Positions 622-41,392 of a DNA stretch of 42,015 nucleotides are shown here, piece by piece. The notes below the pieces were generated by a model that saw only the letters and a program-made list of their open reading frames with translations, was not told the origin of the DNA and did no database searches. Within the stretch, counting starts at the first letter, position 1, and every line of letters begins with the position of its first letter. The DNA comes from a virus. The position numbers and the translations under genes are program-made. The stretch is from positions 1 through 42,015 of the IMG/VR virus record IMGVR_UViG_3300029914_000061; one strand, 5' to 3'.

Positions 622-706
622 TTTAGCACCTTTTGTTACCTTTTAGTGTACTTGTTACCGTTCACTATGCAAGGATCATAGTTTATAGCTATTCACTATG
701 CAAGGA
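622..706 (-). promoter_or_regulatory. Leftward promoter with two TTGCATAGTGAA operator-like sites
   Basis: On the minus strand there is TTGCAT, 17 bp, TATGAT: a strong sigma70-like promoter pointing at the 80-aa gene. The -35 hexamer is the start of the sequence TCCTTGCATAGTGAA (692-706), and a second identical 15-mer lies 31 bp further on (661-675), followed 16 bp later by TACACT. The repeat spacing is three helical turns, which suits cooperative binding of a regulator. The upstream site overlaps the last codons of the HTH gene (SLHSE and stop). The right copy is at 40564-40648. Confidence 0.6.
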
Positions 707-988
707 CATAATGGGTAATTTTATTGCTTTTTGCAAAATATCCCGCGAGGCCCGCGCTATGGCCGGATAAGCTTCGCGCGGTATCATGCGCCGCCCTGTC
801 GCGCACTGGTAGACCATAGCAGGGCTAAGCGCCACGATGTTCTCAAGCTCGCGCACACTTAGCCCCTTGCTATGCGGCAGGTCAAGGTCACTAAGAGCAA
901 GCAACACGCGCCGATACAGCTCGTTTGTAGGGTTATTCGTTCGCCAGCTCAACAGTTGCTTGGCCCGCTGCCGCTTAGTTTTGACCAT
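689..988 (-). CDS. 99-aa helix-turn-helix-like regulator
   Basis: ATG at 988 follows AAAGGTTAGCCA; the gene overlaps the end of the 64-aa HTH gene by 14 bp. Residues about 43-75 read LSVRELENIVALSPAMVYQC, then ATGRRMIP, the pattern of a Cro/XRE-type helix-turn-helix with a recognition helix that ends in a basic segment. The N-terminus is strongly basic. It is probably a DNA-binding regulator of the phage. Together with the two preceding genes it forms a cluster of three small putative DNA-binding proteins next to the control region. The last codons contain an operator-like sequence. The duplicate is at 40631-40930. Confidence 0.6.
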   Translation of the reverse strand: MVKTKRQRAKQLLSWRTNNPTNELYRRVLLALSDLDLPHSKGLSVRELENIVALSPAMVYQCATGRRMIPREAYPAIARASRDILQKAIKLPIMSLHSE

Positions 989-1169
989 TGGCTAACCTTT
1001 CAACCCAGCGCTCTATTTCCGGCCAGTGCTTGGACGGGATAGGATATTTATGCCGGAACCAGTTGCACACGTTCGGCTGTGTTGTGCCAAGGTATGCGGC
1101 AATATCCCCTTGCGTCCTGCCAGTTTGCACCAACAAGGCTAAATATTTATTGCTGATTTGCATGCTCAT
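975..1169 (-). CDS. 64-aa Cro/YdaS-like helix-turn-helix protein
   Basis: The chosen ATG at 1169 overlaps the TGA of the upstream 94-aa gene (ATGA), which implies coupled translation; a GTG at 1181 and an ATG at 1163 are in frame too. The segment TQGDIAAYLGTTQPNVCNWF is a clear helix-turn-helix (A-x-x-LG-x-x-x-x-x-V-x-x-W), followed by IPSKHWPEIERWV, as in Cro/YdaS-type regulators where the C-terminal helix supports dimers. It is likely a small repressor or antirepressor acting on the neighbouring operators. The duplicate is at 40917-41111. Confidence 0.75.
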   Translation of the reverse strand: MSMQISNKYLALLVQTGRTQGDIAAYLGTTQPNVCNWFRHKYPIPSKHWPEIERWVERLANGQN

Positions 1170-1450
1170 GGCTTTAGCCACGGCAGCTGGGCGTCAAACT
1201 CTTTGCCAAGCGGAACAGATATGTCAATTTCTCCCAGCTGCGCAGCTTCCGCCGCCAGCTTTTTGTCCATGGGCGTTTGCTTGTATGTAGCCTCCCGCGT
1301 AACTGGCAGTTTATTTTGTGCCAAGTGCTCTACTAACACAAGGCGGGCGTATGCGGCGGGCTTCATAAATTTTTGAGCTGCAAGGCTTTCAAATTCACTT
1401 AGCCACGTCGGCGCTACGGTAATCACTAATTTAACGCTGTTTTTTTCCAT
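1166..1450 (-). CDS. 94-aa ribbon-helix-helix-like regulator
   Basis: The ATG at 1450 has an excellent ribosome site, AAAAGGAG with 7-8 bp spacing. A TTG-started longer form from 1513 would put the ribosome site directly against its start, so I reject it. Residues 4-45 (SVKLVITVAPTWLSEFESLA, then KFMKPAAYARLVLVEHL) fit a beta strand followed by two helices, the Arc/MetJ fold. The C-terminal half is of unknown structure. It is the first gene of the leftward unit and lies directly behind an inverted repeat (1480-1538) that overlaps its promoter, which suggests autoregulation. The duplicate is at 41108-41392. Confidence 0.6.
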   Translation of the reverse strand: MEKNSVKLVITVAPTWLSEFESLAAQKFMKPAAYARLVLVEHLAQNKLPVTREATYKQTPMDKKLAAEAAQLGEIDISVPLGKEFDAQLPWLKP

Positions 1451-1479
1451 TTTTACTACTCCTTTTTGGGGTTGATTTG

Positions 1480-1538
1480 AATACGTTTTATACTGGTTTT
1501 GAGTACGCTGCAACTCCTTTTTGTATACAAAACGTATT
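1480..1538 (-). promoter_or_regulatory. Inverted-repeat operator over promoter of the RHH-like gene
   Basis: AATACGTTTTATAC (1480-1493, plus strand) faces AATACGTTTTGTATAC (1523-1538, minus strand), giving an inverted repeat whose centres are about 44 bp apart. The second arm contains a perfect 14-bp palindrome, TTTTGTATACAAAA (1519-1532). On the minus strand the first arm contains TATAAA, 15 bp after TTGCAG (1508-1513), a possible -10/-35 pair with short spacing. A protein bound here would block transcription of the 94-aa gene. The right copy is at 41422-41480. Confidence 0.55.
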
Positions 1539-1552
1539 GTTTTTTACCACGG

Positions 1553-1629
1553 CACTTTGCATGAATGCGTGTTTTTTAGCTCAAAATGCCTGTTTTTAGC
1601 CCATGAGTGCATGTTTTTGCAAAGTGACT
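1553..1629. promoter_or_regulatory. Pair of TGCAAAGTG operator-like sites upstream of leftward unit
   Basis: CACTTTGCAT at 1553-1562 (minus-strand motif ATGCAAAGTG) and TTGCAAAGTG at 1617-1626 (plus-strand) lie about 65 bp apart in opposite orientation, upstream of the leftward 94-aa gene. Both match the motif found over other promoters in this genome. The plus-strand one may double as a -35 (TTGCAA), but the best -10 (AATAAT) is 19 bp away, so I do not call a promoter. Between them GTTTTTAGC occurs twice. Confidence 0.45.
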
Positions 1630-1978
1630 ACGCGAGCATGGAATAATGTAACCCATTGATTTTGCTATTGGGTAATTTTATTGCGGGTATGTGTCATAGT
1701 GAGAGGTTGCACGCATGGGCATTGAATTGTTTGGCAAATTCGCCATGAAGTACTGATTTATAACTGAATTCAAAAACAGGGGTACCCTGCACAGAAAGAA
1801 ATTGCAGAAAAAGAGAAAAACAAAATTTCTCTAGTATATATGTTTTAGGATTTAGTTATTATTATAGACATCATGGTCACACCACCACCAAAAAACTAAA
1901 CAATTCAACGCCTTAAAGCCTAACACAAATAAACATTGGGCATACCCCACTTAACCCCTTGAAACAAAACAATTTCCT

Positions 1979-2037
1979 TTGCGTGCATATTGAATGTAGT
2001 TAACAAAAGGTTAACAGCATTCATGCAAAGTGCATGG
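1979..2037. promoter_or_regulatory. Large dyad: GTTAAC pair flanked by motif half-sites
   Basis: GTTAAC-AAAAG-GTTAAC (1999-2015) is a pair of identical 6-bp palindromes. It is flanked on the left by CTTTGCGTGCATATTGAATG and on the right by CATTCATGCAAAG, which are imperfect reverse complements, so the whole element has two-fold symmetry around 2007. The right arm is a TGCAAAGTG site (2024-2032). It resembles a complex operator or origin site. The right copy of the repeat also contains it (41921-41979). Confidence 0.5.
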
Positions 2038-2072
2038 TTATATTTTTATTTTAAAAAACACCATAAAATAGC

Positions 2073-2118
2073 TTAACACCTCACTATGATATTAGTATTA
2101 TAGCCATGCAAAGTGAAT
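2073..2118 (+). promoter_or_regulatory. Rightward promoter with operator-like site at its start point
   Basis: TTAACA (2073-2078), 17 bp, TATTAT (2096-2101) is a strong sigma70-like promoter pointing at the virion genes. The motif ATGCAAAGTGAATG (2105-2118) covers the expected transcription start, so a bound protein would block it. The 5' leader to the first gene would be about 575 nt. The right copy of the repeat ends at the base that begins the -35, so only the left end has the whole promoter. Confidence 0.6.
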
Positions 2119-2214
2119 GAGGCGCCGCGCGGCTAAATTATAAGGAGGCAAGATACAAGGCAGTTAAAATTAAGTTGACTTAGGGCTAAGGCGTTTTAGG
2201 TTTAAGGCGCGAGG

Positions 2215-2234
2215 CTGCATAGTGACTAGTCACG
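2215..2234 (+). promoter_or_regulatory. TGCATAGTG site merged with 12-bp palindrome
   Basis: TGCATAGTG (2216-2224) runs into the perfect palindrome GTGACTAGTCAC (2222-2233). This is the only copy of the motif with an obvious full dyad. It lies about 110 bp downstream of the rightward promoter start. It may be a second operator in the leader; the link to regulation is inferred. Confidence 0.4.
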
Positions 2235-2344
2235 GCAGGGCAGTTTAATTTTATTGCTTTATAACTGTGCAACTTGGGGGATAGGGCTCGAGGGGATTGA
2301 ACTTTTTAAATTTGCGGAGATCAGTCCCAAACTGCAAAATTTTC

Positions 2345-2434
2345 GGGAATTTTTTGCCAAAAATTAAATTCCCTAACTCCTTAACCCTCCCCAACCAATA
2401 TCGTAATTCCGACATCGTAATTCCCTAACTCCTT
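2345..2434. repeat. AT-rich hairpin and short direct repeats (origin-like)
   Basis: GGGAATTT (2345-2352) and AAATTCCC (2366-2373) form a perfect 8-bp inverted repeat around an A/T-rich centre. Just after it, AATTCCCTAACTCCTT occurs twice (2367-2382 and 2419-2434), and ATCGTAATTCC occurs twice (2400-2410 and 2414-2424). Short iterated elements beside an AT-rich unwinding-type sequence are typical of phage replication origins, but no initiator is recognisable, so this is a candidate only. Confidence 0.4.
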
Positions 2435-2487
2435 CTCAAACAACATAACCCCATTGCCAAACCCCGCCGCCTCATAGTACACTTCGT

Positions 2488-2563
2488 GGCGGAACCGGCC
2501 CGGGGCCTCCTTGCCGGGACGCAAAGCCCGGTGGATCGCACCCTGCCGGAGGATGGCGCCACC
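2488..2563 (+). ncRNA. Structured leader RNA with a GEMM (c-di-GMP-I)-like core, tentative
   Basis: The plus strand contains GGGACGCAAAGCC (2516-2528), the highly conserved segment of the GEMM/c-di-GMP-I riboswitch. It fits the family's first hairpin: GGC (2488-2490), a short purine bulge, CCGGC (2495-2499), a loop, GCCGG (2513-2517), GACGCAAA, GCC (2526-2528). A second helix follows: GGTGG (2530-2534) with CCACC (2559-2563). Against it: the usual AAA after the first GGC is GGAA, the loop is not GNRA, and the conserved 3' segment is not evident. It lies in the 5' leader of the virion operon, about 120 nt before the first gene. Confidence 0.3.
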
Positions 2564-2682
2564 CTGCTGGGGAATTGGTCTCTGCCGCTTTGAAACAGCC
2601 CGGCTTCCGCTTACTGCTTGCGCGCGCCATAGTGCTGTGCCATAGTGTGGTCTGAAATTTCCCCTTTTGCATGGAGGATACC

Positions 2683-2868
2683 ATGGGCTCAGAAGTCAAC
2701 ACCCCGACCACTGCTTCGCTGATCCAGAACGCGCAATGCCTTCTGTTGGTGTTCAGCACGGCGCTGACAAACCTGAACACGGCGCTGACCTCGATCGGTG
2801 TGACGAACATCACCGCGTCGCCGACGGTGGCGGCCACCGCGACGAGCATCGCTGCAACCACCCTATAA
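2683..2868 (+). CDS. 61-aa hypothetical protein, first gene of rightward unit
   Basis: The ATG at 2683 has GGAGGA five bases upstream; an in-frame ATG at 2671 lies on that ribosome site and is rejected. The product (MGSEVNTPTTASLIQNAQCL...) is rich in A, T, S and N with a hydrophobic middle (LLLVFSTALTNLNTALTSIG). Small proteins of this composition are common next to phage fibre genes, but I do not recognise the family. It starts a run of three genes (this, 94 aa, 628 aa) with short spacers, probably one adsorption-related cluster. Confidence 0.7.
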   Translation: MGSEVNTPTTASLIQNAQCLLLVFSTALTNLNTALTSIGVTNITASPTVAATATSIAATTL

Positions 2869-2883
2869 CCCGAGGACAAGATC

Positions 2884-3168
2884 ATGGGCATCTCTCCACA
2901 AACTGTCGAGAGCGGCGTGCCGGGGCAATTGTCCAGCACGGGCGGTGTGTTGAAAAAGGGGAGCGGAGTGCTGACCGGCATTTTTGTTTCGTCGGCATCT
3001 GCCACTCCGACGATCACGGTGTACGACAATACGACGGGCACCGGAAATCCGATCATCCCGACTTTCACTCCGGCGGCAGCCACATACTATGAGTTCCGGG
3101 CCTATTTCCAGAATGGGCTGAATGTTGTGCTTGGTGGGACGGTGACCGGCGCGGCGATGTACATTTAA
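2884..3168 (+). CDS. 94-aa hypothetical, beta-rich virion-like protein
   Basis: ATG at 2884 follows GAGGACAAGATC. The sequence is rich in G, T, S and V with alternating hydrophobics (GVLTGIFVSSASATPTITVYD..., ending GGTVTGAAMYI) and predicts beta strands, like decoration, fibre-tip or head-fibre proteins of phages. No catalytic motif is visible. It lies between the 61-aa gene and the large fibre-like gene and is likely part of the same cluster. Role inferred only from composition and position. Confidence 0.65.
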   Translation: MGISPQTVESGVPGQLSSTGGVLKKGSGVLTGIFVSSASATPTITVYDNTTGTGNPIIPTFTPAAATYYEFRAYFQNGLNVVLGGTVTGAAMYI

Positions 3169-3179
3169 GCGAGGGCACG

Positions 3180-5066
3180 ATGTTCAAGAAAAATTTGTGG
3201 CTGATTTCCTTGGCGCTGTCTTCTCTGACAGTGTTTTCGTGCCAGCCTGCTTTTGCGCAGATTGCACCCGCGCCAAACCCCTTGTTGTCTGCCTCAAGCT
3301 CGGGGATCAACAACGAGAACCAGATTATCCAGTACGTCAATAACATCGACTATTATTTGCAAGGTGTTTTTGGTTCGGGAAATTCTCCCGTGCTTACTTG
3401 GGCGTCGGCTGGTGTCCAACAGATCATGGGCGGGTCTGACCAGTCAACCTTTACGGTCTTTGGGGAACAAGGAACGGGCGGCACGCTTCAAACTCTGATT
3501 ACGAATTATGAAGGCACGTCCGATTTCGCGCACTATGCATTCTGTCATAATGTCCTGTGGACGGGGACAACTGCCACATCGACCTACGACCACACATCGA
3601 CGAATTACTGCTGGGCGTACACCGATAACGGCTATGTCATGGCATTCTATGCGCCTGCGACGGGTGGTTCTGGCGCGCCCGCATTTGTGGCGACGCCTTC
3701 CTATTCGTTGAATTTAATGAATGGCACGACCACACTGGCAACGCCTTTGGCAGTGGCGAACGGCGGGACGGGCGCATCGGCGTTTACGCAAAATAGCATT
3801 CCCTTCATGGGTGCTTCTGGTGCTCTGACACAAGATAACGCGAACCTGAATTGGAATGACAGCACCTTGGCTATGACCTTGGGTGGAACATTGACTGAAA
3901 CCAATACTCTTGCGCTCGGTGCATCTAATATCCTTGCCAATTCGTTCATCACCACTTCTTCCACCAACGCATCGGCGGCTGGCGGGGCGGTAACGAATCT
4001 GCTTGGCGAAATAATTGTTACTGGCAGTGGAACCCCAACATCAGGGGGACATCAGGTCGGGTTGAAGGGTTGGCATAGAACTGCGATCACCGCAGGGAAT
4101 GTACCAGAAGCTATCGCCAATGAAGGGCAACTCGACCTGACCGGACAGACTGGCGGTTCGATTACCGATGCTTATGCTTATCAGGCATATCTCTCTATTG
4201 GCGGTAATGCGTCAGCAAACGCGACGAATATCTACGGCTTTGCTGTCCTTCAAGATTCTCAGTACACGGGGACGGTATCGAACCTCTATGGTGTCTATGT
4301 CGGACCTCTATCGTCCGTAAGCGGTACGGTCTATTCATTCTACGCTTATGGTACACTCAATTCCAGCACACCGATTATGTATCAACCAGGCCCGTCGCAA
4401 TTTGGTTCTGGAATGTCAATCGGGACGAGTTCTGCTGGGATTTATGATCTTTCTATTGGTGCCAGCGGTACGGCGGGGGTGCGCCTTAATGTCGGAAACG
4501 GCGGTTCTGGTGTTTCCAATTACATGTCCTTCAACGGCAATCGGGCATATGTGGGTTATAATGACACAAGTTCTGATGCTGTAGTTCAAGGCATTTCAGG
4601 ACGCGGAATAGAATTAAACGTAAACAATAACACGCTTGGTTCAGGAACCGCCCTTAAAATTACAACGACTGGCGCAGTAGGTATCGGAACTACATCACCG
4701 ACGACAAATACCTTGCTTGATGTTCGCGGTGCTGTTTCTTCATATGGACTTGTTATAAATGCATCTGCACGAGCAGTTAACAATGCGACAACTTCTGACA
4801 CCATAGCGGCGGGGATAGCCTCAACTTATGAGTCTACGAACTCGGCTACTATCACACTGACATTCGCGGCACCAACCATAGACGGAGAACGCCGTCGTGT
4901 TTGTTTGAAGAATGCATCTACTGTCACATGGGCGGTGACGTCTCCAGCAACAGCCGTGGCGGGCTTGCCTACTACGTTCCTTGCGGGTCAATGCGTGGAA
5001 GCAATCTATAACTCAGCTTCTGGGACTCCAACAAATTCCCCTGCAACGACATGGATTGTCTATTGA
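3180..5066 (+). CDS. Fibre-like virion protein with N-terminal Sec signal peptide
   Basis: The 628-aa product starts after GAGGGCACG at 3180. Residues 1-26 (MFKKNLWLISLALSSLTVFS followed by CQPAFA) are a textbook signal peptide: basic start, hydrophobic core, AFA before the likely cleavage site. The rest is a repetitive G/S/T/N-rich beta-type protein with the tail-fibre motif NGGTG (about residue 197) and GIGTTSP (about 502), usual in trimeric phage fibres and S74-type tips; I see no S74 catalytic domain. It is probably a receptor-binding or surface protein. The signal peptide is odd for a virion protein and could mean that it is secreted. Its stop lies at the edge of a 55-bp repeat. Confidence 0.7.
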   Translation: MFKKNLWLISLALSSLTVFSCQPAFAQIAPAPNPLLSASSSGINNENQIIQYVNNIDYYLQGVFGSGNSPVLTWASAGVQQIMGGSDQSTFTVFGEQGTGGTLQTLITNYEGTSDFAHYAFCHNVLWTGTTATSTYDHTSTNYCWAYTDNGYVMAFYAPATGGSGAPAFVATPSYSLNLMNGTTTLATPLAVANGGTGASAFTQNSIPFMGASGALTQDNANLNWNDSTLAMTLGGTLTETNTLALGASNILANSFITTSSTNASAAGGAVTNLLGEIIVTGSGTPTSGGHQVGLKGWHRTAITAGNVPEAIANEGQLDLTGQTGGSITDAYAYQAYLSIGGNASANATNIYGFAVLQDSQYTGTVSNLYGVYVGPLSSVSGTVYSFYAYGTLNSSTPIMYQPGPSQFGSGMSIGTSSAGIYDLSIGASGTAGVRLNVGNGGSGVSNYMSFNGNRAYVGYNDTSSDAVVQGISGRGIELNVNNNTLGSGTALKITTTGAVGIGTTSPTTNTLLDVRGAVSSYGLVINASARAVNNATTSDTIAAGIASTYESTNSATITLTFAAPTIDGERRRVCLKNASTVTWAVTSPATAVAGLPTTFLAGQCVEAIYNSASGTPTNSPATTWIVY

Positions 5067-5091
5067 ATTTGATTTTGGGGAATGACACGAA

Positions 5092-5391
5092 ATGCAGGCC
5101 TTAAATAATTCTAACATAGGGGGATCGCTCAGTCTTGGTGGTGCGATCCCTACCGCTTCTGCAGGAACAATCGACACGGGATCAACATCCAACGCAGGAA
5201 AAGTTACAGGTTTATCTGGCGCCACGACGCTAACACTGACTTGGAATGCAGCATCTCCCACGGCAGGCCTTGCTTGCAATTTCACGGGGAGCGCAGCCTT
5301 GGCAACACCGGCGATCACGGCACTATCTACGGCGGCAGTTACAGTGACCATGACGGCGTTTACGGGAACTCTGTATTACGTTTGCTTCTAA
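5092..5391 (+). CDS. 99-aa hypothetical beta-rich protein
   Basis: ATG at 5092 lies inside the first 55-bp repeat, with GGGGAA nine bases upstream. The sequence (MQALNNSNIGGSLSLGGAIP...) is rich in A, T, S and G with alternating strands and few charges, like small fibre-associated or decoration proteins. The first ten codons are shared with the second repeat copy, where they do not form a gene. It may have been gained by insertion. Function unknown. Confidence 0.65.
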   Translation: MQALNNSNIGGSLSLGGAIPTASAGTIDTGSTSNAGKVTGLSGATTLTLTWNAASPTAGLACNFTGSAALATPAITALSTAAVTVTMTAFTGTLYYVCF

Positions 5392-5410
5392 ATAAGGAGT
5401 ACGGTGTTTA

Positions 5411-5620
5411 ATGCCCGACCTAACCCAACAATTCTCGCAAAACAGAGACGAACTCTGCGACAAGATTGTTGAATTGGATCAGGCTTTGCAGTTTATGATC
5501 GGCGACATGGGAAAGATTGCGTTAGGCGAAGTCAATCCCCGCGCCATGCGCAGGTTCGCGGTGCAGAGCTTGCGGGGGCTTAATTTGATTTTGGGGAATG
5601 ACACGAAATGCAGGCCTTAA
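5411..5620 (+). CDS. 69-aa hypothetical helical protein
   Basis: ATG at 5411 with AAGGAG about 11 bases upstream. The product (MPDLTQQFSQNRDELCDKIV...) looks all-helical and amphipathic. Its last residues (LILGNDTKCRP) are encoded by the second 55-bp repeat. A small helical gene shortly before the large terminase could be a terminase small subunit, but it lacks a recognisable DNA-binding motif and is shorter than usual, so this is left open. Confidence 0.65.
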   Translation: MPDLTQQFSQNRDELCDKIVELDQALQFMIGDMGKIALGEVNPRAMRRFAVQSLRGLNLILGNDTKCRP

Positions 5621-5645
5621 ATAATTCTAACATAGGAGGTGCGCT

Positions 5646-6086
5646 ATGGGCTTGGTAAACACTTTGAGTACGCTTACAGGACAAAGAGCTGTGGGGCCGA
5701 GCCATTCGATTGAAGATCCCGGCCATAACCACGGGCTTCCTGAATTGCTGCCAGAACGCGAAGTTGGCCCGGACGATCCAGAAGACGAAGGTGAGTTTGA
5801 CCGCGACGGCAACGAAGATCCCGGCACAAATCAGCCGCCCGCGCCGGAGGAAGATTTATTTCCTGAGATGCTTCCGAAGCCGGCAGCGGAAGAACAAGTT
5901 CCGCATTCTGTGCTTGTGACAGAGTTTAACTATTTGTCTATCGGGGGCCGCACGGGGCGGCTGCGCGCAGTGGGCACAACAGCCAAGGGTGCGGCATTCA
6001 GTCTTACGGAAGAAGTGCCGCCGAATGTCCCTCTGCAGGTCCTGCTGGGCTTTGTGGAAGACTTGCGCCGCAGGTTTGGCCAATGA
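5646..6086 (+). CDS. 146-aa acidic hypothetical protein
   Basis: ATG at 5646 follows TAGGAGGTGCGCT. Residues about 25-80 are extremely acidic and proline-rich (PDDPEDEGEFDRDGNEDPG) and likely disordered; the C-terminal part (about 85-146) has alternating strands and a final amphipathic helix. Its stop overlaps the KTSC gene start (ATGA), so it is translated with the KTSC and terminase genes. Function unknown; it does not resemble a small terminase subunit. Confidence 0.7.
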   Translation: MGLVNTLSTLTGQRAVGPSHSIEDPGHNHGLPELLPEREVGPDDPEDEGEFDRDGNEDPGTNQPPAPEEDLFPEMLPKPAAEEQVPHSVLVTEFNYLSIGGRTGRLRAVGTTAKGAAFSLTEEVPPNVPLQVLLGFVEDLRRRFGQ

Positions 6087-6301
6087 TCCCCGAAGAATGG
6101 TCTTCAGTCCAGAGCACGAATATCGACCAAGTCAAGTATGACCTGTCGGCCCATGAGCTGCACGTTCAATTCAAGAATGGCGGGTATTATATTTACACAG
6201 GTGTGCCGGTTGAAGATGCAGAAGAAATTTATCATGCCTCGTCCCCCGGATCGTATCTGCGTAGCAACATCATTGGCGTGTACCCTCATCGGAGGGCCTA
6301 A
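6083..6301 (+). CDS. KTSC-domain protein
   Basis: The 72-residue protein is essentially one KTSC domain: VQSTNIDQVKYDLSAHELHV (residues 9-28), then FKNGGYYIYTGVP, and SPGSYLRSNIIGVY near the end, matching the family pattern of S-S-N-I, F-x-x-G, Y-x-Y-x-x-V-P and G-S-Y. KTSC domains are known from the C-terminus of some lysyl-tRNA synthetases and as stand-alone proteins in many phages; the stand-alone function is unknown, with nucleic-acid binding suggested. ATGA overlap with the gene before and TAATG overlap with terminase. Confidence 0.85.
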   Translation: MIPEEWSSVQSTNIDQVKYDLSAHELHVQFKNGGYYIYTGVPVEDAEEIYHASSPGSYLRSNIIGVYPHRRA

Positions 6302-8283
6302 TGGGACAGCGCGAAGAACTATTAAAGATTTTCAACGAAGACCGCGTTTATGCGCACGAGATTTTGTTTGCGCACCGACATAAGGACACAACCCCTGAGT
6401 TTCATCGGCAAACGCTACTTAATTTTTATTCTTCGCACCCGCGCGTGGCAGAAGAGGCTTTTCGCGGCGGTGCAAAATCAACGCTGATCGAGGAATATGT
6501 GATCCTCTCCGCGCTGTTCCGCGAGTTTGAATTTGCCGTGTTCATCGGTAACGCCTATGGCATGGCCTGCGAGCGGCTTTCTGCTGTCAAGCAGGAGCTC
6601 ACAAACAACGACGGCCTGATCGAGTTGTTCGGGGACCAGCACGGTCCTACATGGGCAGAGGGTGAAATCGTCTTGGCCAACGGGCGCAAGATCCAAGCCC
6701 TCGGCGCGCGCCAGTCTATGCGCGGCGTCAAGCATAACGACGAGCGCCCTGACTTGGCCGTGGTTGACGATCTTGAAGACGAAGACATGGTCTCGTCAAA
6801 GGAAGCCATTCTCAAGAACAAGCGGTGGTTTAACGGTGTGCTTCGTCCCGCACTCAATCCCAAAACAGGGCGGATCCGCGCGCTGGGCACGCCACTTCAC
6901 CCGGAAGCGCTAATCGAGCAGTTGATGAATAATCCCGAGTGGCTTTCCGCCCGCTTCCCGATTTGTTACATTGACGAGAACGGGATTGAGCAGTCCACGT
7001 GGCCTTCCCGCTTCCCCATGGAGTGGATCAATAAGCTGCGGCAGGACTATATCACCGACGGCGCGCTGACAGAATTCGAGCAAGAGTATATGTGCCGCAG
7101 CGAGAGTGCCGCTTTGAAGCCGTTCAAGGCCGACATGATCGTTACCGCGCAGGTGCGCCAGACGTGGGTTGCCAAGAAGCTGATCGTGGATCCGGCTCGT
7201 ACCGTCAACGAGCGCAAGTCGGCGCAGACTGGTTATGTCGTGCAAAGCTGGATAGGCAACAAGTTAATCGTGCACGAAGCTTTCGGGGCCTTCCATCGAC
7301 CGGATGAAATCGTGGACACTATTTTCAAGCTGGACGAAGAACATCGCCCTGTCGAGATTGCGGTTGAAGTCGATGGGCTCGAAGAATTCCTTATGCAGCC
7401 TTTGCGTAACGAGATGCTCAAACGTGGGCGCAGCTTGCCGATTATCCCTATCCGCGCGCCGAAAAATAAAATATCCTTCATTACGGGCTTGCAGCCGTTC
7501 TATATCGCCCACGAGGTGGTACATGCAAAGCATTTACCCGAGTTGGATGCTCAACTCCTTCAATTTCCAAAGGGCCGGATGGACATCCTTAATGCTGAAG
7601 CATATTCAGTTCGCCTTCGTTCAGGACATCCTGTGTACGAGGATTTTCAAGACGCGAACGTTGCCGAGGTATTGGAACTCGATAGAAAGCGTCCGGTCTT
7701 TCTTCTCATGTCTGCGCGACCGGCAATTACGGCAGGGGTGCTCTTGCAATACATCGACGGATGTGTTCGCATTTTCAACGATTGGGTCGTGCAGTTACCC
7801 CCCGTCGAAGCCTTCCGTCAAATCGTGGACGACGCCGTGCTATTTGCTGGTCGAAAGGTTGACATCGTGGTGCCGATGGAGCAGTTCGAGAAATACACCG
7901 GATACGGATTACCCGGTGCTGCGCGCGCCAACCGAATAGAGGTCAGGCCTGCCGCGATGGCAGGAGCATGCGAAGGCAACTTGAAAGACTATTTGCGCAA
8001 GACCATACGGGGAGAACCAGCCTTTCTGATTGATATGGAGGCCCGCTGGGTTGTTAACGGTTTTGCTGGTGGGTACGGCAGAAAGTTAAATTCTGCCGGT
8101 GTTTTGCAGGGGCAGACGGAGGACAACCAATATCGCATAGTGATTGAGGCTATTGAGGCCTTCATCGGGTGGTTTGGCAATAACGAGAGTGTTATTGATA
8201 AAGACCCGAACAAGCGGTATGCTCAGACTTCAGATGGCCGCACTTATCAGACCACTTTGCCGAGTAGGAACTCTCATGCCTAA
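6301..8283 (+). CDS. terL: Terminase large subunit
   Basis: 660 aa. This ATP-driven motor packages DNA into the prohead and cuts concatemers. Walker A is RGGAKST (residues 55-61), Walker B is LAVVDDLED (152-160), and LGTP (195-198) fits the coupling motif. The nuclease domain follows, with VDPAR (Asp about 297) and VEVDG (356-359) as candidate metal-binding acidic residues. The last 200 residues are an extra C-terminal region that I cannot assign. ATG at 6301 overlaps the previous stop (TAATG) behind GGAGG. The 3' end overlaps the portal start by 8 bp. The type of terminase is consistent with podovirus packaging, but the cutting mode cannot be read from it. Confidence 0.92.
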   Translation: MGQREELLKIFNEDRVYAHEILFAHRHKDTTPEFHRQTLLNFYSSHPRVAEEAFRGGAKSTLIEEYVILSALFREFEFAVFIGNAYGMACERLSAVKQELTNNDGLIELFGDQHGPTWAEGEIVLANGRKIQALGARQSMRGVKHNDERPDLAVVDDLEDEDMVSSKEAILKNKRWFNGVLRPALNPKTGRIRALGTPLHPEALIEQLMNNPEWLSARFPICYIDENGIEQSTWPSRFPMEWINKLRQDYITDGALTEFEQEYMCRSESAALKPFKADMIVTAQVRQTWVAKKLIVDPARTVNERKSAQTGYVVQSWIGNKLIVHEAFGAFHRPDEIVDTIFKLDEEHRPVEIAVEVDGLEEFLMQPLRNEMLKRGRSLPIIPIRAPKNKISFITGLQPFYIAHEVVHAKHLPELDAQLLQFPKGRMDILNAEAYSVRLRSGHPVYEDFQDANVAEVLELDRKRPVFLLMSARPAITAGVLLQYIDGCVRIFNDWVVQLPPVEAFRQIVDDAVLFAGRKVDIVVPMEQFEKYTGYGLPGAARANRIEVRPAAMAGACEGNLKDYLRKTIRGEPAFLIDMEARWVVNGFAGGYGRKLNSAGVLQGQTEDNQYRIVIEAIEAFIGWFGNNESVIDKDPNKRYAQTSDGRTYQTTLPSRNSHA

Positions 8284-10441
8284 TGAAATTAAAAAGCCCG
8301 TTAGTGCGGAAGATCCGGCAATGACTGGCATGCCAGAAGAACTTGAAGAGGAAGAAGTTTCCGATGTCGAAGACAGGAAAAAAGAATTTTCTACTTCGAA
8401 AAAGGTTAGGGTTCAGCTTGAAGAGCTTTATGATACGGTTGTGGCCGGTTTTGATGACAAGCAAGATCAGACCGAGGATATCGAGCGTTTTTGGGACATT
8501 TACAACTGTGTGCTCAATGAAAATCAGGCATATTTTGGCAATTCTCAAATCTATGTATCCGCCGTCGCCGACGCCGTGGACGCTCTTACGACGCGCGACA
8601 ATAATTCTTTGTTCCCTATCAACGGACGCTATGCTACGGCAGTGGGCCCCAATGGCACTGTTCCTTATGACGTTATCGCAATCTTAGACCATTACGCGCG
8701 CCAGACAAAGATGCGCGAAAACATTGTCCCTTGTCTGCTGCGAACGGGCAAGGTGACGGGGCACTATATTTTATCTGTGGGCTGGAAAGAAGAAACGTTC
8801 CACACGATCCGCAAGAAGAAAACAGCGACGATCGAAGATGATCAGGGCGTGCCGGTCGAAGGGGCTGACGAAGTTGACGACATCGAAGAAGAAGAGATTA
8901 AGTCAGGTGGCCCGACGCTTCAAGTTTTGGATCCTCGCAACGTTTGTCTGTTGCCTGCCACCGTTGACAATATAAGCGATTGCTCGATTGTTGCAGAGCG
9001 GCTGCACTTTTCAAAAGAAGGCGTGCAGGATGCCATTGACGACGGAACGTTTGACGAGGAAGCGGGCGAACTGCTTCTGGAGAACTTCGGCACCGCAAAC
9101 AGTCCGAATGAAACGGACACAACTAAAAAGTCGGCTTCCGCTGCCGGCATAAAGCTGAACAGTAAAGGCAATAAAGTCGCGGTGATTTACCGTGTGTGGT
9201 CAACGCTAAAGCTAAAGGGCAAAGCGCGCCGCAAGTGTGTGAGCTATTTTGGCGGCGGGAAGATTATTTTGTCCTGCAAGCGTAACCCTTACTGGAATGA
9301 CAAGATCCCCCTGCTTGCGCAGCCTGCGCGCAAAATGGAAGGCACGATCTGGGGAAAGAGCGTGTTTTATAAGGTTGAAGGGCTGCAATACGCGCTGAAC
9401 GACGTAACTAACGAGGGCTTGGATAGCTCACAGTATTCCTTGATGCCGATTACCGCGACGGATCCTGCCAAGAACCCGCGCACAGGTTCGATGGTGCTGT
9501 CCATGGGCGCGCTGTGGGAAGTGGACCCGAACAGCACTAAATTCATGGAGTTCCCCCAGCTTTGGAAAGATGCCTTTGCCATGGCCGGCACGCTCGGCGA
9601 CAAGATCATGCAGAGCATAGGCATCAATCCCGCGTTGCTGCCGCACGGGAATGCCGGCAAGAAACCTACCCAAGCACAGGTCGCGCAGGAACAGCAGGTC
9701 GCGCAGGAAAGCGTTGCAGATAACATCGCAATTCTCGAAACCGGCATTTTTAACGAGCTGCTGGGCTGGTTTTACGATCTGGATTATCAATTCCGCACTA
9801 AAGCGGTCGAAGTAAAACAATTCGGCCAACTCGGAATGCAGGCAAAGATGCAGGAAGTTGAGCCTTTCGAGACCTATACCGCTAATACCTTCCTTTGGTA
9901 CGGGTCTGAAGGCACAAAGGCCACACAGCAGGTGCAGCAACAGATTGCGGCCCTGAATGTTCTGCGTGGCATGCCCCCAGAGTTATTGAACGGTCGAAAA
10001 ATCGACATTGGTCCGATTATCGAGCACCTTGCCGAAGTTGCTTTCGGTCCGCGCATCGCGCCATTCGTGTTGATTGATCAGCGCCACCAGCTAAGCATCA
10101 ACCCGATGGAAGAAAATGAGCTTATGCTGAATGGTTTCCCTGTGACTGTGCAGCAGATGGATAACGACGTCGAACACCTAAAGGCGCACATGGACGCCAT
10201 GAAAATGGCCCCGAATGCCGAGTTGTTAAAGCTGCACATTTTGGCGCACATGAACCAACTTCAGCACAAATCGCAACAGGCTGCCGGCGGTCCCGCGCCT
10301 AAGGGCCAGCCCGGCGTTGGCGCTTCTCCCCCGGGGCAGCCGCGTATCGGCGCACAGCCCGGTGCTCCACGTCCCGCGCAAGCCCCACCCGGCGCAATTC
10401 ACCAAGATGCAATCCAAGACCCAAACAGGATGCCAAGGTAA
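8276..10441 (+). CDS. Portal (head-tail connector) protein
   Basis: 721 aa from the ATG at 8276, which has AGGAA six bases upstream; the open frame extends further up to 8144 but only as a shadow of terminase. The portal ring sits at one capsid vertex, forms the DNA channel and docks the terminase. Evidence: position between terminase and scaffold/capsid genes, size, an acidic N-terminus (EELEEEEVSDVED), a long mixed core and a P/G/Q-rich C-terminal tail (PKGQPGVGASPPGQPRIG). It resembles portals found with N4gp56-type capsids. I rely on synteny more than on motifs. Confidence 0.85.
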   Translation: MPNEIKKPVSAEDPAMTGMPEELEEEEVSDVEDRKKEFSTSKKVRVQLEELYDTVVAGFDDKQDQTEDIERFWDIYNCVLNENQAYFGNSQIYVSAVADAVDALTTRDNNSLFPINGRYATAVGPNGTVPYDVIAILDHYARQTKMRENIVPCLLRTGKVTGHYILSVGWKEETFHTIRKKKTATIEDDQGVPVEGADEVDDIEEEEIKSGGPTLQVLDPRNVCLLPATVDNISDCSIVAERLHFSKEGVQDAIDDGTFDEEAGELLLENFGTANSPNETDTTKKSASAAGIKLNSKGNKVAVIYRVWSTLKLKGKARRKCVSYFGGGKIILSCKRNPYWNDKIPLLAQPARKMEGTIWGKSVFYKVEGLQYALNDVTNEGLDSSQYSLMPITATDPAKNPRTGSMVLSMGALWEVDPNSTKFMEFPQLWKDAFAMAGTLGDKIMQSIGINPALLPHGNAGKKPTQAQVAQEQQVAQESVADNIAILETGIFNELLGWFYDLDYQFRTKAVEVKQFGQLGMQAKMQEVEPFETYTANTFLWYGSEGTKATQQVQQQIAALNVLRGMPPELLNGRKIDIGPIIEHLAEVAFGPRIAPFVLIDQRHQLSINPMEENELMLNGFPVTVQQMDNDVEHLKAHMDAMKMAPNAELLKLHILAHMNQLQHKSQQAAGGPAPKGQPGVGASPPGQPRIGAQPGAPRPAQAPPGAIHQDAIQDPNRMPR

Positions 10442-10449
10442 GATGGGAC

Positions 10450-10552
10450 TTGCCACGCAAAGTGAAATAACATAATATCAACCCGTTAACTTTCGAGTTG
10501 TTCCCGGAAGGAACTTTTCGAGTTGTGACCGATAGCCACAAAGGAGAGACAG
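10450..10552 (+). promoter_or_regulatory. Promoter-like gap before scaffold/capsid with TGCAAAGTG-type site
   Basis: TTGCCA (10450-10455), 17 bp, TAATAT (10473-10478) is a good sigma70-like promoter. The spacer contains ACGCAAAGTGAAA, which matches the control-region motif except for T to C at one position. Downstream, TTTCGAGTTGT is present twice (10491-10501 and 10516-10526) with a small hairpin, GTTCC/GGAAC (10500-10504/10510-10514), between them. The scaffold gene begins at 10553 behind AAAGGAGAGACAG. This is the largest gap in the packaging/head cluster. Confidence 0.55.
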
Positions 10553-11311
10553 ATGAGCGACGACGAAACCGAAAACCAAGGCGCAGCACAAGAACTGGAA
10601 ACAAACACGGGCGTAGGCGATCCTGCCGATGATGAGGATGATCTATTACCGCTTGATCCAGAAGACGACGGAAGTGAAGAGCAAGAACCTGAAGTCGAAG
10701 GCGTTGCAGATACCGCTGCCGCAAGTGTGCAGCCGAGCCGCAGCACCGCACGCATTCAGAAGCTTGCGAAAGAGCGAGACGATGCCAAAGCGAACGAAGA
10801 AGCCCTTCGCAAGCAGTTGGCAGAAGTTCAGGCCCAAAATCGCTACAATCCGCAAGCGGAAGCAGCGAGACAAGCCGAGGCAGCCCGAGTTGCCGCAATG
10901 GATCCCATGGAGCGGGAACGTTACGAAGACAAGCAAAAGGTTGCTGCTCTTGAAGCCCAAGTCGCAAATCTTGGGTTTGCACAGTCCGACGGTCTTGATC
11001 GTGCAAGGTTTGAGGCAAAAGCGGAGCTAAATCCTGTCTACAAGAAATACGCCGCAGGTGTTGAAGCCACTTTGCAGGAAATGCGGGCCAAAGGCGTCAA
11101 TAGCACGCGTGAGGCCATCTTGACCTACAAGCTGGGCGAAGCCGCGCGGAAGAAATTGGAAGGCGGTTCGGCAGCAGGGCAGCGCACAAGACAAGCAGCC
11201 CAGAACCGGGTCGAAAATGTGAGGGGAAGGCCTGCAAATCTGCGGGGGGACTCTTCAGGATCAAAACAAGGCAAAACCGAGGAAGATCGTCTTCGCGGTG
11301 TTCAAATCTAA
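10553..11311 (+). CDS. Putative capsid scaffolding protein
   Basis: 252 aa; ATG at 10553 behind AAAGGAG. The first 55 residues are very acidic (GDPADDEDDLLPLDPEDDGS), then comes a long charged helical region (about 65-180: KLAKERDDAKANEEALRKQL) with coiled-coil character, and a basic C-terminus. Acidic-plus-coiled-coil composition directly before the major capsid gene is typical of phage scaffolds, which shape the prohead and are then removed. It has no protease motif. Function inferred from position and composition. Confidence 0.75.
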   Translation: MSDDETENQGAAQELETNTGVGDPADDEDDLLPLDPEDDGSEEQEPEVEGVADTAAASVQPSRSTARIQKLAKERDDAKANEEALRKQLAEVQAQNRYNPQAEAARQAEAARVAAMDPMERERYEDKQKVAALEAQVANLGFAQSDGLDRARFEAKAELNPVYKKYAAGVEATLQEMRAKGVNSTREAILTYKLGEAARKKLEGGSAAGQRTRQAAQNRVENVRGRPANLRGDSSGSKQGKTEEDRLRGVQI

Positions 11312-11335
11312 GGTTCGGGGGATCGCCCTGACCTT
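11310..11335 (+). other. RNA hairpin between scaffold and capsid genes
   Basis: AAGGTTCGGG (11310-11319) can pair with CCCTGACCTT (11326-11335), ten positions with one mismatch and one G-T pair, leaving a 6-base loop. No T-run follows, so it is not a standard terminator. It ends eight bases before the capsid ribosome site (GGAGG, 11343-11347). It could be a processing or stability element that sets the capsid to scaffold ratio; this is inference. Confidence 0.35.
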
Positions 11336-11352
11336 GCAACTTGGAGGTTAAC

Positions 11353-12729
11353 ATGGCTAACGTAAACGTATCCCCCACCTTTTCTGCTGATATTAGTAAC
11401 TTTATTCAGAAGAAAACCCTGCCGCTGGTTCAGCGCCAGCTTATTGCCTATCAGTTTGGCGAAAAGCTGCGCCTGCCCAAAAATCGCGGTACGGTCTATA
11501 CCGCCTCGCGGTACGATCGTATTAACCTGCCTTTCGCTCCTTTGAGCGAAGGTATCCCGCCCGTCGGCGAAAGCCTCGTGCTGGTGCAGGTCAACGCCGT
11601 TGCCCAACAGTGGGGCGACACGGTTACCGTTACCGACGTGGCCGATTTCACCATCGACCATCCGCTCTTCAAGAAGGCCATTGAGTTGGTCGCCATGCAG
11701 ATGTCGGAAACGCTGGAACGCAACACGTTCAACAACCTTATGGCCGGCACGCAGATCAATTACGTCAACACTCGTGGCACGCGCGCCAATCTGGTATCGA
11801 CGGACGTTCTGAACCCGCACGAAATCAACCGGGTGTACGGTTCACTGGTTACGATCGGGGCCCCTCTCTTCAACGGTCAGTTGGAAGAAGATGCCAAAAT
11901 CGACGCCGGTAAGCCTGCAATGGCTTCGAAAGATCCGCGCGGCGCAGAACATTTCGTCGCTATGATCCACCCTTTGGTGGCTCAGGACATGCGTGAAAAT
12001 CCCACGGTTGTTACCGCGTGGAGCCGTTCGGACATCAACCGCTTGTATAATAACGAGCTTGGTGAATGGGGCGGTATGCGCTTTGCTCAATCCAACATGA
12101 TCCCCTACTTCACCGGCGTTACCGCTCCGACGACGGCGGCCAATACGACCAACGGCTCTTATGCGACAAGCACAACCGGCGGATCGCTTGCTGCTGGCAC
12201 GTATTACCTCGTCATCACCGGCTCGGTTACTCAGAACGGTTATGAGCAGCGTATCAGCTTGACATCGGGCGCGATTACGGTTGGCGGTTCGGGCTTCGGC
12301 TCCATCGTCGTTACCACCCCGAGCGTTGCGGGCTATACGTGGAACGTCTATCTGGACACGGCTGCTTCTCCGGCCCATCTGGGTACGACCTCCGGCGGCC
12401 CGAACTCCGGCCCGTTGGCTGGTCAGGCTGTTCTGCTCACGGGCGGCACCGCTTACACGATCACTTCGGTGGGCTCGGCTCGTGTTCCTCCTGCGGCTCC
12501 GGCTGCGGGCGTGACCGTGTTCCCGACCTTTATTTTCGGTAAGGGCGCTTACGGGCAAGTCGTTCTGGATGATCCGAAGTTCAGCTACCTGTCCGGTGGC
12601 GACAAAGCGGATCCTCTGAACCAGCTGCGCGTATGCGGGTGGAAGGCGTTTTACGGCACCATTTTGCTTAATCAGAACTTTTTTGCCCGCATCGAAAGCT
12701 CAAGCGCTTTCAGTGCAACTTTCGGCTAA
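11353..12729 (+). CDS. Major capsid protein, N4gp56 family
   Basis: 458 aa from ATG at 11353 with GGAGG five bases upstream (a TTG at 11341 is rejected). The N-terminal part (FIQKKTLPLVQRQLIAYQFG, then LPKNRGTVYTASRYDRI, then GDTVTVTDVADFTIDHPLF) matches the N4gp56-type HK97-fold capsid proteins. Residues about 257-390 form a T/G/S-rich insert (GSLAAGTYYLVITGSV, GYTWNVYLDT) that looks like an immunoglobulin-like or bacterial surface domain, probably exposed on the head. The C-terminus returns to capsid-type sequence (FGKGAYGQVVLDDPKFSYLS). A hairpin terminator follows at 12770. Confidence 0.9.
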   Translation: MANVNVSPTFSADISNFIQKKTLPLVQRQLIAYQFGEKLRLPKNRGTVYTASRYDRINLPFAPLSEGIPPVGESLVLVQVNAVAQQWGDTVTVTDVADFTIDHPLFKKAIELVAMQMSETLERNTFNNLMAGTQINYVNTRGTRANLVSTDVLNPHEINRVYGSLVTIGAPLFNGQLEEDAKIDAGKPAMASKDPRGAEHFVAMIHPLVAQDMRENPTVVTAWSRSDINRLYNNELGEWGGMRFAQSNMIPYFTGVTAPTTAANTTNGSYATSTTGGSLAAGTYYLVITGSVTQNGYEQRISLTSGAITVGGSGFGSIVVTTPSVAGYTWNVYLDTAASPAHLGTTSGGPNSGPLAGQAVLLTGGTAYTITSVGSARVPPAAPAAGVTVFPTFIFGKGAYGQVVLDDPKFSYLSGGDKADPLNQLRVCGWKAFYGTILLNQNFFARIESSSAFSATFG

Positions 12730-38393: not shown

Positions 38394-38600
38394 TTAGTGG
38401 TTCTGGTTGTAGATAAAGAGTTCTAGGCCGTAACACGCCCATTGCATTTCGAGGCTTGCTTGCCCGCTTGTTTCGATCCGCCATAGCTTCGACGTTGACA
38501 CTCCCAGCAATTGCGCGGCGCGCTCTTGTGTGAGACTGCAACGCTTGCGCCACGCTTCAAGATCGTAGGGCACTGTTGACGACTTAATTTGTTTTGGCAT
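38394..38600 (-). CDS. 68-aa Cro/XRE-type regulator
   Basis: ATG at 38600 behind AAGGTGCAAC. Residues 13-48 form an XRE helix-turn-helix: LEAWRKRCSLTQERAAQLLG then VSTSKLWRIETSG, with the S-L-T-Q-E-x-A-A-x-x-L-G core. The remaining C-terminal part (LEMQWACYGLELFIYNQNH) could dimerise. The gene lies directly downstream of a strong promoter with two palindromic operator-like sites, the arrangement of an autoregulated phage Cro or repressor. Confidence 0.82.
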   Translation of the reverse strand: MPKQIKSSTVPYDLEAWRKRCSLTQERAAQLLGVSTSKLWRIETSGQASLEMQWACYGLELFIYNQNH

Positions 38601-39683: not shown

Positions 39684-40196
39684 TTAGCCCTCCCTCTTTC
39701 CGTTTTTGTCAAAGGTGTATTCGTTGGCCCGAATGCCTTCTTCCAAGTACTCGCGCGAGGACATATAATCGGCTTCCTTTTGCAACATGCTTGCATACTC
39801 TTCCAGAATGGCGCGGAGAAACTCGCTGGCCAGTTCCTCCAACTCGTCCTCTGTCTCGGAAAAATCGTCGCTGTCCGGCATGCCGTCAACGATAGCTTTA
39901 ACCTTGGCCAGATAATCCTTGGCTGTTTTATAGCTGCCGCAAGTTTCCCCGTGCTCTTCCAAAATCTTTTCCGCACATGCGTCGGCGTGATTAATAAAAT
40001 CGCCTTCGGCGCGCTTGTTCCGGTCAAGATCAAAGCTCGTTATTCTTATGCCAACATGCGCGGCATCGTCATACGTGCTTTGCCACCATTCATTGTCAAA
40101 AGCTCCTTCTAAATACCAATTAAGCGCGCGCTCTTTGGCCTTTTCAGTTGGCAATTCGTCATATTCATAAACCGTTTTTGTGATTGTTTTAGGCAT
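39684..40196 (-). CDS. 170-aa phage protein (antitoxin-like family of unknown function)
   Basis: ATG at 40196 behind AAAGGAAAGTACC; ATG at 40223 is a possible alternative. The start MPKTITKTVYEYDELPTEKA, then KERALNWYLEGAFDNEWW, fits a small-protein family common in phages that is sometimes labelled antitoxin without proof. The rest is a helical domain (DYLAKVKAIVDGMPDSDDFS) with acidic character. The left edge of the right-hand terminal repeat (39943) cuts through this gene, which is why the left copy is partial. Confidence 0.75.
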   Translation of the reverse strand: MPKTITKTVYEYDELPTEKAKERALNWYLEGAFDNEWWQSTYDDAAHVGIRITSFDLDRNKRAEGDFINHADACAEKILEEHGETCGSYKTAKDYLAKVKAIVDGMPDSDDFSETEDELEELASEFLRAILEEYASMLQKEADYMSSREYLEEGIRANEYTFDKNGKREG

Positions 40197-40237
40197 GGTA
40201 CTTTCCTTTTTTTGTGTGGTCATGATCTTTGCCCCTT

Positions 40238-40324
40238 TTAGTTTGAGTAAACCGCGCGTAGCACTGTGGCCACAAACACGATCAAGAAAGTAATCCCGCC
40301 CGCTAGGGCTTCGCCGCGCGTCAT
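40238..40324 (-). CDS. 28-aa single-membrane-helix microprotein (right copy)
   Basis: Right-hand copy of the gene at 296-382, with identical sequence. Here it connects the 80-aa gene to the complete 170-aa gene. Its ATG overlaps the TGA of the 80-aa gene. Confidence 0.65.
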   Translation of the reverse strand: MTRGEALAGGITFLIVFVATVLRAVYSN

Positions 40325-40563
40325 ATTACTTTACCAGTGCTGAAAACTTCGATTGCGCTGCGCGGGCAGTGGTATGCTTTCTCAAGCTGTTCTTTCGCGT
40401 CCTCAATGCTTGCCGCCGCTAGGGACACTTTAAGCGCGGGCTTGCCCGTACTGTCAGGAGGTATGAAGCCAATGAAGCGGTAGCACTGAAAGGCCACAGG
40501 CTTGCCCTTAGGCTTGCGGGCGTGGTAGACCATTGTTGCTTCGTAATGGTTAGATGTTTTCAT
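40321..40563 (-). CDS. 80-aa phage protein of unknown function (right copy)
   Basis: Right-hand copy of 379-621, identical, with the same upstream promoter and paired TTGCATAGTGAA sites at 40564-40648. In a linear genome this is the copy joined to the leftward transcription unit. Confidence 0.75.
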   Translation of the reverse strand: MKTSNHYEATMVYHARKPKGKPVAFQCYRFIGFIPPDSTGKPALKVSLAAASIEDAKEQLEKAYHCPRSAIEVFSTGKVI

Positions 40564-40648
40564 TTTAGCACCTTTTGTTACCTTTTAGTGTACTTGTTAC
40601 CGTTCACTATGCAAGGATCATAGTTTATAGCTATTCACTATGCAAGGA
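40564..40648 (-). promoter_or_regulatory. Right copy of promoter with paired operator-like sites
   Basis: Identical to 622-706: minus-strand TTGCAT, 17 bp, TATGAT, with TTGCATAGTGAA copies at 40603-40617 and 40634-40648. Confidence 0.6.
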
Positions 40649-40930
40649 CATAATGGGTAATTTTATTGCTTTTTGCAAAATATCCCGCGAGGCCCGCGCT
40701 ATGGCCGGATAAGCTTCGCGCGGTATCATGCGCCGCCCTGTCGCGCACTGGTAGACCATAGCAGGGCTAAGCGCCACGATGTTCTCAAGCTCGCGCACAC
40801 TTAGCCCCTTGCTATGCGGCAGGTCAAGGTCACTAAGAGCAAGCAACACGCGCCGATACAGCTCGTTTGTAGGGTTATTCGTTCGCCAGCTCAACAGTTG
40901 CTTGGCCCGCTGCCGCTTAGTTTTGACCAT
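40631..40930 (-). CDS. 99-aa helix-turn-helix-like regulator (right copy)
   Basis: Right-hand copy of 689-988, identical in protein sequence. It overlaps the 64-aa HTH gene by 14 bp as in the left copy. Confidence 0.6.
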   Translation of the reverse strand: MVKTKRQRAKQLLSWRTNNPTNELYRRVLLALSDLDLPHSKGLSVRELENIVALSPAMVYQCATGRRMIPREAYPAIARASRDILQKAIKLPIMSLHSE

Positions 40931-41111
40931 TGGCTAACCTTTCAACCCAGCGCTCTATTTCCGGCCAGTGCTTGGACGGGATAGGATATTTATGCCGGAA
41001 CCAGTTGCACACGTTCGGCTGTGTTGTGCCAAGGTATGCGGCAATATCCCCTTGCGTCCTGCCAGTTTGCACCAACAAGGCTAAATATTTATTGCTGATT
41101 TGCATGCTCAT
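40917..41111 (-). CDS. 64-aa Cro/YdaS-like HTH protein (right copy)
   Basis: Right-hand copy of 975-1169, identical. The ATG at 41111 overlaps the TGA of the 94-aa gene. Confidence 0.75.
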   Translation of the reverse strand: MSMQISNKYLALLVQTGRTQGDIAAYLGTTQPNVCNWFRHKYPIPSKHWPEIERWVERLANGQN

Positions 41112-41392
41112 GGCTTTAGCCACGGCAGCTGGGCGTCAAACTCTTTGCCAAGCGGAACAGATATGTCAATTTCTCCCAGCTGCGCAGCTTCCGCCGCCAG
41201 CTTTTTGTCCATGGGCGTTTGCTTGTATGTAGCCTCCCGCGTAACTGGCAGTTTATTTTGTGCCAAGTGCTCTACTAACACAAGGCGGGCGTATGCGGCG
41301 GGCTTCATAAATTTTTGAGCTGCAAGGCTTTCAAATTCACTTAGCCACGTCGGCGCTACGGTAATCACTAATTTAACGCTGTTTTTTTCCAT
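41108..41392 (-). CDS. 94-aa RHH-like regulator (right copy)
   Basis: Right-hand copy of 1166-1450, identical, including the AAAAGGAG ribosome site and the upstream inverted repeat (41422-41480). This is the start of the leftward unit as it appears in the linear map. Confidence 0.6.
   Translation of the reverse strand: MEKNSVKLVITVAPTWLSEFESLAAQKFMKPAAYARLVLVEHLAQNKLPVTREATYKQTPMDKKLAAEAAQLGEIDISVPLGKEFDAQLPWLKP

Follow-up and report, generated by a model that had tools for sequence, protein, structure and literature searches.

The control region of the virus record IMGVR_UViG_3300029914_000061, analyzed here over a stretch of 42,015 bp that we call the window, contains a repeated 9-bp word, TGCAWAGTG, that is a real regulatory site family. 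Copies of the word are concentrated between positions 600 and 2670, recur in the corresponding region of two further phage lineages (G003 and G004), and for a subset of sites overlap the core elements of predicted promoters. The family is best described as a putative Cro/CI-like operator set of a new phage group, and we hold with moderate confidence that its binder would be a conserved 68-amino-acid (68-aa) helix-turn-helix (HTH) protein rather than one of the small regulators encoded in the terminal repeat, a pairing that rests on three lineages.

Enrichment and conservation of the word

All of the sites named in the first-pass annotation, which was made from the letters of the window, were found at their positions. 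In the 2.07-kb control region, whose boundaries were set after the data had been seen, the exact word occurs 7 times against a shuffle mean of 0.09 (maximum of 1 in 500 shuffles), and allowing one mismatch at most gives 10 matches against 1.58 expected (maximum of 6 in shuffles). The remaining 37.9 kb of unique genome is at about background, with 3 exact copies against a mean of 1.00 and 23 matches with at most one mismatch against 19.65 (20 shuffles); these three exact copies, at 3531, 11068, and 17784, were all missing from the first-pass list. Because positions 1 to 2073 recur at 39943 to 42015 with a single mismatch (at 1949), the sites at 40605, 40636, 41495, 41560, and 41966 duplicate sites of the first copy, and all sites in the second repeat copy were excluded from the enrichment counts. 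The pattern read backwards, which served as a control, has 0 exact matches in the window. Chance-level matching inside genes had been named at the outset as evidence against a regulon; matching outside the control region is indeed at chance level, and the excess within it is strong.

The control region of G003 holds 3 exact copies against 0.08 expected and 10 with at most one mismatch against 1.47, with 1 exact copy elsewhere in that genome; the values for G004 are 7 against 0.06 and 13 against 1.15, with 0 exact copies elsewhere. ACTTTGCA, with 15 copies, is the most frequent 8-mer that the three control regions share. Since variants such as TTCAWAGTG and GTGC/GTGA occur, we refined the word to TKCAWAGTGM, which is found 7, 5, and 8 times inside the control regions of the window, G003, and G004, respectively, and 3, 2, and 0 times outside them. 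All 7 sites in the control region of the window point outward with the divergent genes, and orientation is mixed in the other two lineages. Overall, 8 of the 13 records searched contain the exact motif, and relatives with about 50% terminase identity hold 0 to 2 copies. A diverged word in G008, GCATAGTC, was considered as a counterpart and rejected, as it is positioned away from the control region of that genome. Scanning the viral contigs for paired sites recovered 18 stretches, of which 3 come from the known lineages and the remainder are, by position, lone pairs or close-spaced arrays; L068 is the one that was read as sequence, and CACTATGCA words form an array in non-coding DNA at its positions 7309 to 7363. 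A text search of the literature for TGCAAAGTG and four longer motif strings returned no title on a phage regulatory site among the matches listed.

A natural variant affects the paired sites at 661-675 and 692-706, which form an exact 15-bp repeat. An alignment of 18,280 bp between the window and the near-identical contig G001 (L005) shows only 3 differences. Two of them, at 662 and 693, are an identical T>G change at the equivalent base of the two sites. TKCAWAGTGM ends in TGA in one allele and in TGC in the other, and both forms are in use in other lineages. An independent chance origin of the paired change is very unlikely, and repeat conversion or selection is possible; if binding is true, the substitution would provide a natural example of operators that change together.

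Sites on predicted promoters

Promoters were scored with an approximate Escherichia coli sigma-70 matrix. Three arrangements of site and promoter recur, at the leftward promoter, at the start of the first rightward gene, and at the scaffold-gene promoter (Table 1). At the leftward promoter, the TTGCAW of a site is exactly the -35 element in all three lineages (TTGCAA-17-TATGTT in G003 and TTGCAA-17-TATATT in G004), giving a consensus of TTGCAW-17-TATRWT with AAATTAC-N9-CC ahead of it; a scan of the viral contigs for AAATTAC-N9-CCTTGCAWAGTGM gave 5 stretches, every one in contigs of these lineages. A second site lies 31 bp on in the window, around +1, and 39 bp upstream in G004, and CAAAGTGA is located 40 bp upstream of the leftward promoter site in G003. 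Before the first rightward gene, TTGCGC-17-CATAGT of the window has the counterpart TTGCAA-17-CATAGT in both G003 and G004, with site-like words on the -35 and the -10. The site described by the first-pass annotation ahead of the head genes was confirmed in the spacer of the scaffold-gene promoter, with one mismatch. One-mismatch sites such as this are singly not significant; in the scaffold-promoter gap, CAWAGTGM occurs once in the window, 0 times in G003, and twice in G004, against 0.029, 0.025, and 0.025 expected (a total of 3 versus 0.08). Among 15 occurrences of TTGCAWA[GA]T, a set that includes one non-site (731, TTGCAAAAT), the mean best -10 score at a spacing of 16 to 18 is 1.16, versus -1.85 at background positions (p = 0.0007), and 8 of the 15 score above 2.5.

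The overlap of sites with -35, spacer, -10, and +1 positions would fit a repressor. TKCAWAGTGM would then be the operator of a phage-encoded protein that, bound at any of these positions, blocks host RNA polymerase on sigma-70-type promoters, namely, the leftward early promoter, the rightward promoters, and, in two of the three lineages, the scaffold/head-gene promoter. One protein could thereby time several transcription units. A single regulon linking such promoters, as first proposed from the window, is plausible: sites are shared on the predicted leftward and rightward promoters (and at the scaffold gene in two of three lineages) and conserved in two other lineages, and the placement of the binder in the repeat was not supported. 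No RNA polymerase or sigma factor was found among the open reading frames (ORFs) scanned, and such a regulon bears on how the phage could use host polymerase to set the timing of early and head genes.

Table 1. Sites, predicted promoters, and candidate regulators in the window
Feature	Position	Strand	Remarks
Site TTGCATAGTGAA	661-672 (within 661-675)	-	Around +1 of leftward promoter 703-675
Predicted leftward promoter TTGCAT-17-TATGAT	675-703	-	Spacing identical in G003 and G004
99-aa weakly HTH-like protein in repeat	689-988	-	First-pass candidate
Site TTGCATAGTGAA	692-703 (within 692-706)	-	Supplies the leftward promoter -35 (TTGCAT)
Small YdaS-like HTH protein in repeat	975-1181	-	Pfam YdaS_toxin, 26.7 bits, below cut-off of 30
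94-aa protein in repeat	1166-1450	-	No family match; first-pass candidate
Inverted repeat AATACGTTTTATA / TACAAAACGTATT	1480-1492/1526-1538		Possible separate operator of a repeat-encoded regulator
Site TGCAAAGTG	1553-1561	-	Exact TGCAWAGTG
Site TGCAAAGTG	1618-1626	+	Exact TGCAWAGTG
Site TGCAAAGTG	2024-2032	+	Exact TGCAWAGTG
Predicted rightward promoter TTAACA-17-TATTAT	2073-2101	+	CATAGTG in spacer (2082-2088, minus strand)
Site TGCAAAGTG	2107-2115	+	Around +1 of 2073-2101 promoter
Site TGCATAGTG	2216-2224	+	Exact TGCAWAGTG
Region before first rightward ORF, TTGCGC-17-CATAGT	2618-2649	+	CATAGTG at 2628 and 2641
Predicted scaffold-gene promoter TTGCCA-17-TAATAT	10449-10477	+	Site CGCAAAGTG at 10456-10464 (+) in spacer, one mismatch
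68-aa Cro/CI-type HTH protein	38394-38600	-	Candidate binder; outside terminal repeat
Second copy of 1-2073	39943-42015		One mismatch; duplicates the motif sites

Candidate binder and competing explanations

The 68-aa protein exceeds the Pfam HTH_31 cut-off (31.6 versus 27 bits), and its best PHROG matches are transcriptional repressors. Its structure model has an HTH fold with a mean predicted local distance difference test (pLDDT) score of 88.9; among solved structures it comes closest to Cro/CI-type regulators such as C.Kpn2I and C.EcoT38I, with a best E value of 0.032 and none at or below 0.001. The protein is 68% identical in G003 and 76% identical in G004, and the recognition segment STSKLWRIE is invariant. 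Homologues in G007 and G008 are 37% identical (42% over the core) and read SRTQYWKLE and SREHYWKLE; G008 has no exact TGCAWAGTG, and G007 has 2 copies versus 1 for the reversed control. Relatives were recovered in 5 viral contigs, all already known, and none was found in 50,697 named phage records at an E value of ≤0.01; a comparison with genome contigs produced two weak partial matches and gave no host. The four ORFs of the repeat (379-621, 689-988, 975-1181, and 1166-1450) had no tblastn match at an E value of ≤0.5 in 7 other genomes, including the three motif-sharing records, and relatives of the 99-aa ORF were found only in G001 and G002. The repeat ORFs lack matches where the word is unchanged and are therefore unlikely to be its readers, so that the first-pass proposal of a binder among the small repeat regulators was not borne out. 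The 68-aa protein, conserved with an invariant recognition helix, is the better candidate. For the explanation as a whole, a set of phage repressor operators read by this protein, in which we infer protein binding, repression, and the binder alike, the chances appear about even.

Several observations weigh against this explanation. No homologue of the 68-aa protein was detectable in G006 (best E value of 0.20), a genome with overlapping ends that appears complete, and the control region of G006 holds 4 copies of a different word, AAGCTATTGA (2489-2875 in turned coordinates), which together speak against a simple pairing of protein and word. The scaffold promoter of G003 is without the site, and many sites have no recognizable promoter nearby; the -35 test is also partly self-overlapping, and in 2 of its rows the -10 CATAGT belongs to a site. 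The core TKCA-WAG-TGMA consists of two half-sites with an asymmetric center and is only pseudo-palindromic, which is unusual for a Cro-type dimer. Independent lineages number only three once G005, nearly a copy of G004, and G001 and G002, nearly copies of the window, are left out of the count. Finally, the word falls at the 3' end of an HTH-looking gene that differs between lineages, and a variable regulator is thus possible, as is another conserved early protein with no recognized domain. The control region of G007 likewise holds 4 copies of its own word, AACCTATTGA (2671-3142 in turned coordinates), and G008 has one. The words of G006 and G007 were rejected as homologues of the word in the window, as ATAG is all that they have in common with it, which is too little.

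Binding by a small regulator of the repeat, either the 99-aa protein or the YdaS-like HTH protein, would fit the layout of the region, as these genes adjoin the sites and one site does lie, as reported by the first-pass annotation, over the final codons of the 99-aa ORF. In the other lineages, the same place upstream of the leftward promoter is taken by a different HTH-looking ORF (156 aa in G003 and 90 aa in G004, judged by eye), with its stop codon in or touching the motif word, so the arrangement is kept and the proteins are not. This turnover, with no tblastn match for any of the four repeat ORFs and an unchanged motif, makes such a binder quite unlikely. Variable regulators are better suited by the palindromes particular to each lineage, GTCATATGAC in G003 and a TGTGATAATTATCACA-like sequence in G004, and by the inverted repeat at 1480-1538 of the window. 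The palindromes lie on or near strong predicted promoters (in the regions 3020-5010 of G003 and 10600-12520 of G004, turned coordinates), and the TGTGATAATTATCACA-like one resembles a CRP site. These features suggest that variable regulators with their own operators exist beside one fixed word. Control could then have two layers, in which a fast-changing HTH gene would act with the lineage palindromes, an unchanging 68-aa protein would read the word at early, rightward, and head promoters, and the paired operators of the leftward promoter would evolve in concert, as with the shared substitution in G001; we regard this fuller scheme as unlikely.

A host transcription factor or nucleoid protein could also bind the motif, and L068 is of interest here: this otherwise different phage, with other terminase and portal families, has 4 exact sites and one variant in 55 bp of non-coding DNA, and it shares the 13-mer AATCAATGGGTTA with positions 1649-1661 of the window. 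Its array resembles a short tandem repeat, however, and the control regions of G006, G008, and G009, relatives that may have different hosts, are without the motif, leaving a host protein with a low probability. Replication-origin iterons bound by a replication protein would account for the repetition of words in a large stretch with few genes, flanked by leftward replication genes and rightward virion genes, and for the fact that the sister phages G006 and G007 have repeated words of their own. Yet the sites are scattered over 1.1 to 1.6 kb in both orientations with no tandem array, the leftward-promoter site keeps a fixed phase to the -35 and -10 in three lineages, and sites are found 8 kb away as well, at the scaffold promoter; the DnaA box TTWTNCACA is absent from the control region of the window and has its only exact match at 31235. 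We consider an iteron role very unlikely. We give as little credence to the idea that the word acts as a promoter element in its own right, used by a host sigma factor (a conserved extension of the -35, with CATAGT as the -10), and has no dedicated regulator. In several places, TTGCAW does act as a -35 with 17-bp spacing, and the rightward promoter of all three lineages does have CATAGT as its -10, but other copies are at +1, in spacers, or off promoters, and the spacer, where sigma-70 is not known to have such a preference, contains the conserved AGTGM part.

Known systems and genome context

The closest working parallel is the operator and stoperator set of Cluster A mycobacteriophages such as L5 and Bxb1. 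As described in PMC9283540 and PMC6550527, these sites are 13 to 14 bp long, largely asymmetric, and located in non-coding DNA, including the early leftward promoter; L5 has more than 20 sites genome-wide, and systems of its type 20 to 30, mostly between genes. The L5 sites are oriented with transcription and recognized by a 183-residue repressor that has two DNA-binding domains and binds as a monomer. On that description, the sites studied here are similar in being short (∼10 to 11 bp), largely asymmetric, repeated in non-coding DNA that includes the leftward early promoter, and present in similar form in related phages. Unlike those of L5, they number 6 to 10 and lie mostly in one control region (7 in the window, with 3 exact copies elsewhere at background level), they run with transcription in the window but in both directions in G003 and G004, and the candidate repressor is a 68-aa protein with a single HTH. 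We do not file them under Cluster A operators because site number, distribution, and the two-domain repressor do not fit.

Cro/CI switch operators offer a further parallel, with a small XRE/Cro HTH protein encoded and conserved together with the sites (G006 being the exception) and with sites on the -35, spacer, and +1 of divergent promoters, which are predicted here. They differ in that the word is only pseudo-palindromic and in that a PHROG scan covering 38 different ORFs of the window, a subset of the total, matched no integrase; lysogeny is therefore not indicated. The same scan gave no match to an RNA polymerase or sigma factor. The restriction-modification C-proteins C.Kpn2I and C.EcoT38I have a comparable small single-domain Cro/CI-like fold, a similarity of fold only (E value of 0.03), and unlike in those systems no restriction-modification genes were recognized among the ORFs scanned. 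The case illustrates that comparing uncultivated relatives can separate a conserved operator from variable ones.

Named phages are distant relatives only, with terminase identity below 60% in all 442 matched records. In the viral contigs, terminase relatives were found at 17 loci: G001 and G002 are near-identical to the window, the terminases of G003 and of the near-twins G004 and G005 are 77 to 78% identical, and the others are ∼50% identical or less. L011 to L013, L017, and L018 were examined for words only, and L019 to L021 for the exact motif only. Contig G001, which does not extend to the 68-aa gene, runs from 39217 through one repeat copy into the right-hand genes, so 1-2073 and 39943-42015 may be either a true terminal repeat or an assembly overlap. 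A tRNA search and an Rfam family search of the window found nothing. The rightward genes include those for the terminase, portal, and major head protein, and the leftward genes include those for a primase/helicase, an SNF2-type helicase, an exonuclease, and a DNA polymerase. The start context AAGGTGCAAYM-ATG recurs upstream of several leftward starts in G003 and G004 and of the 68-aa gene of the window. A 64-bp direct repeat, 95% identical, is present at 5066-5129 and 5582-5645 of the window, 516 bp apart.

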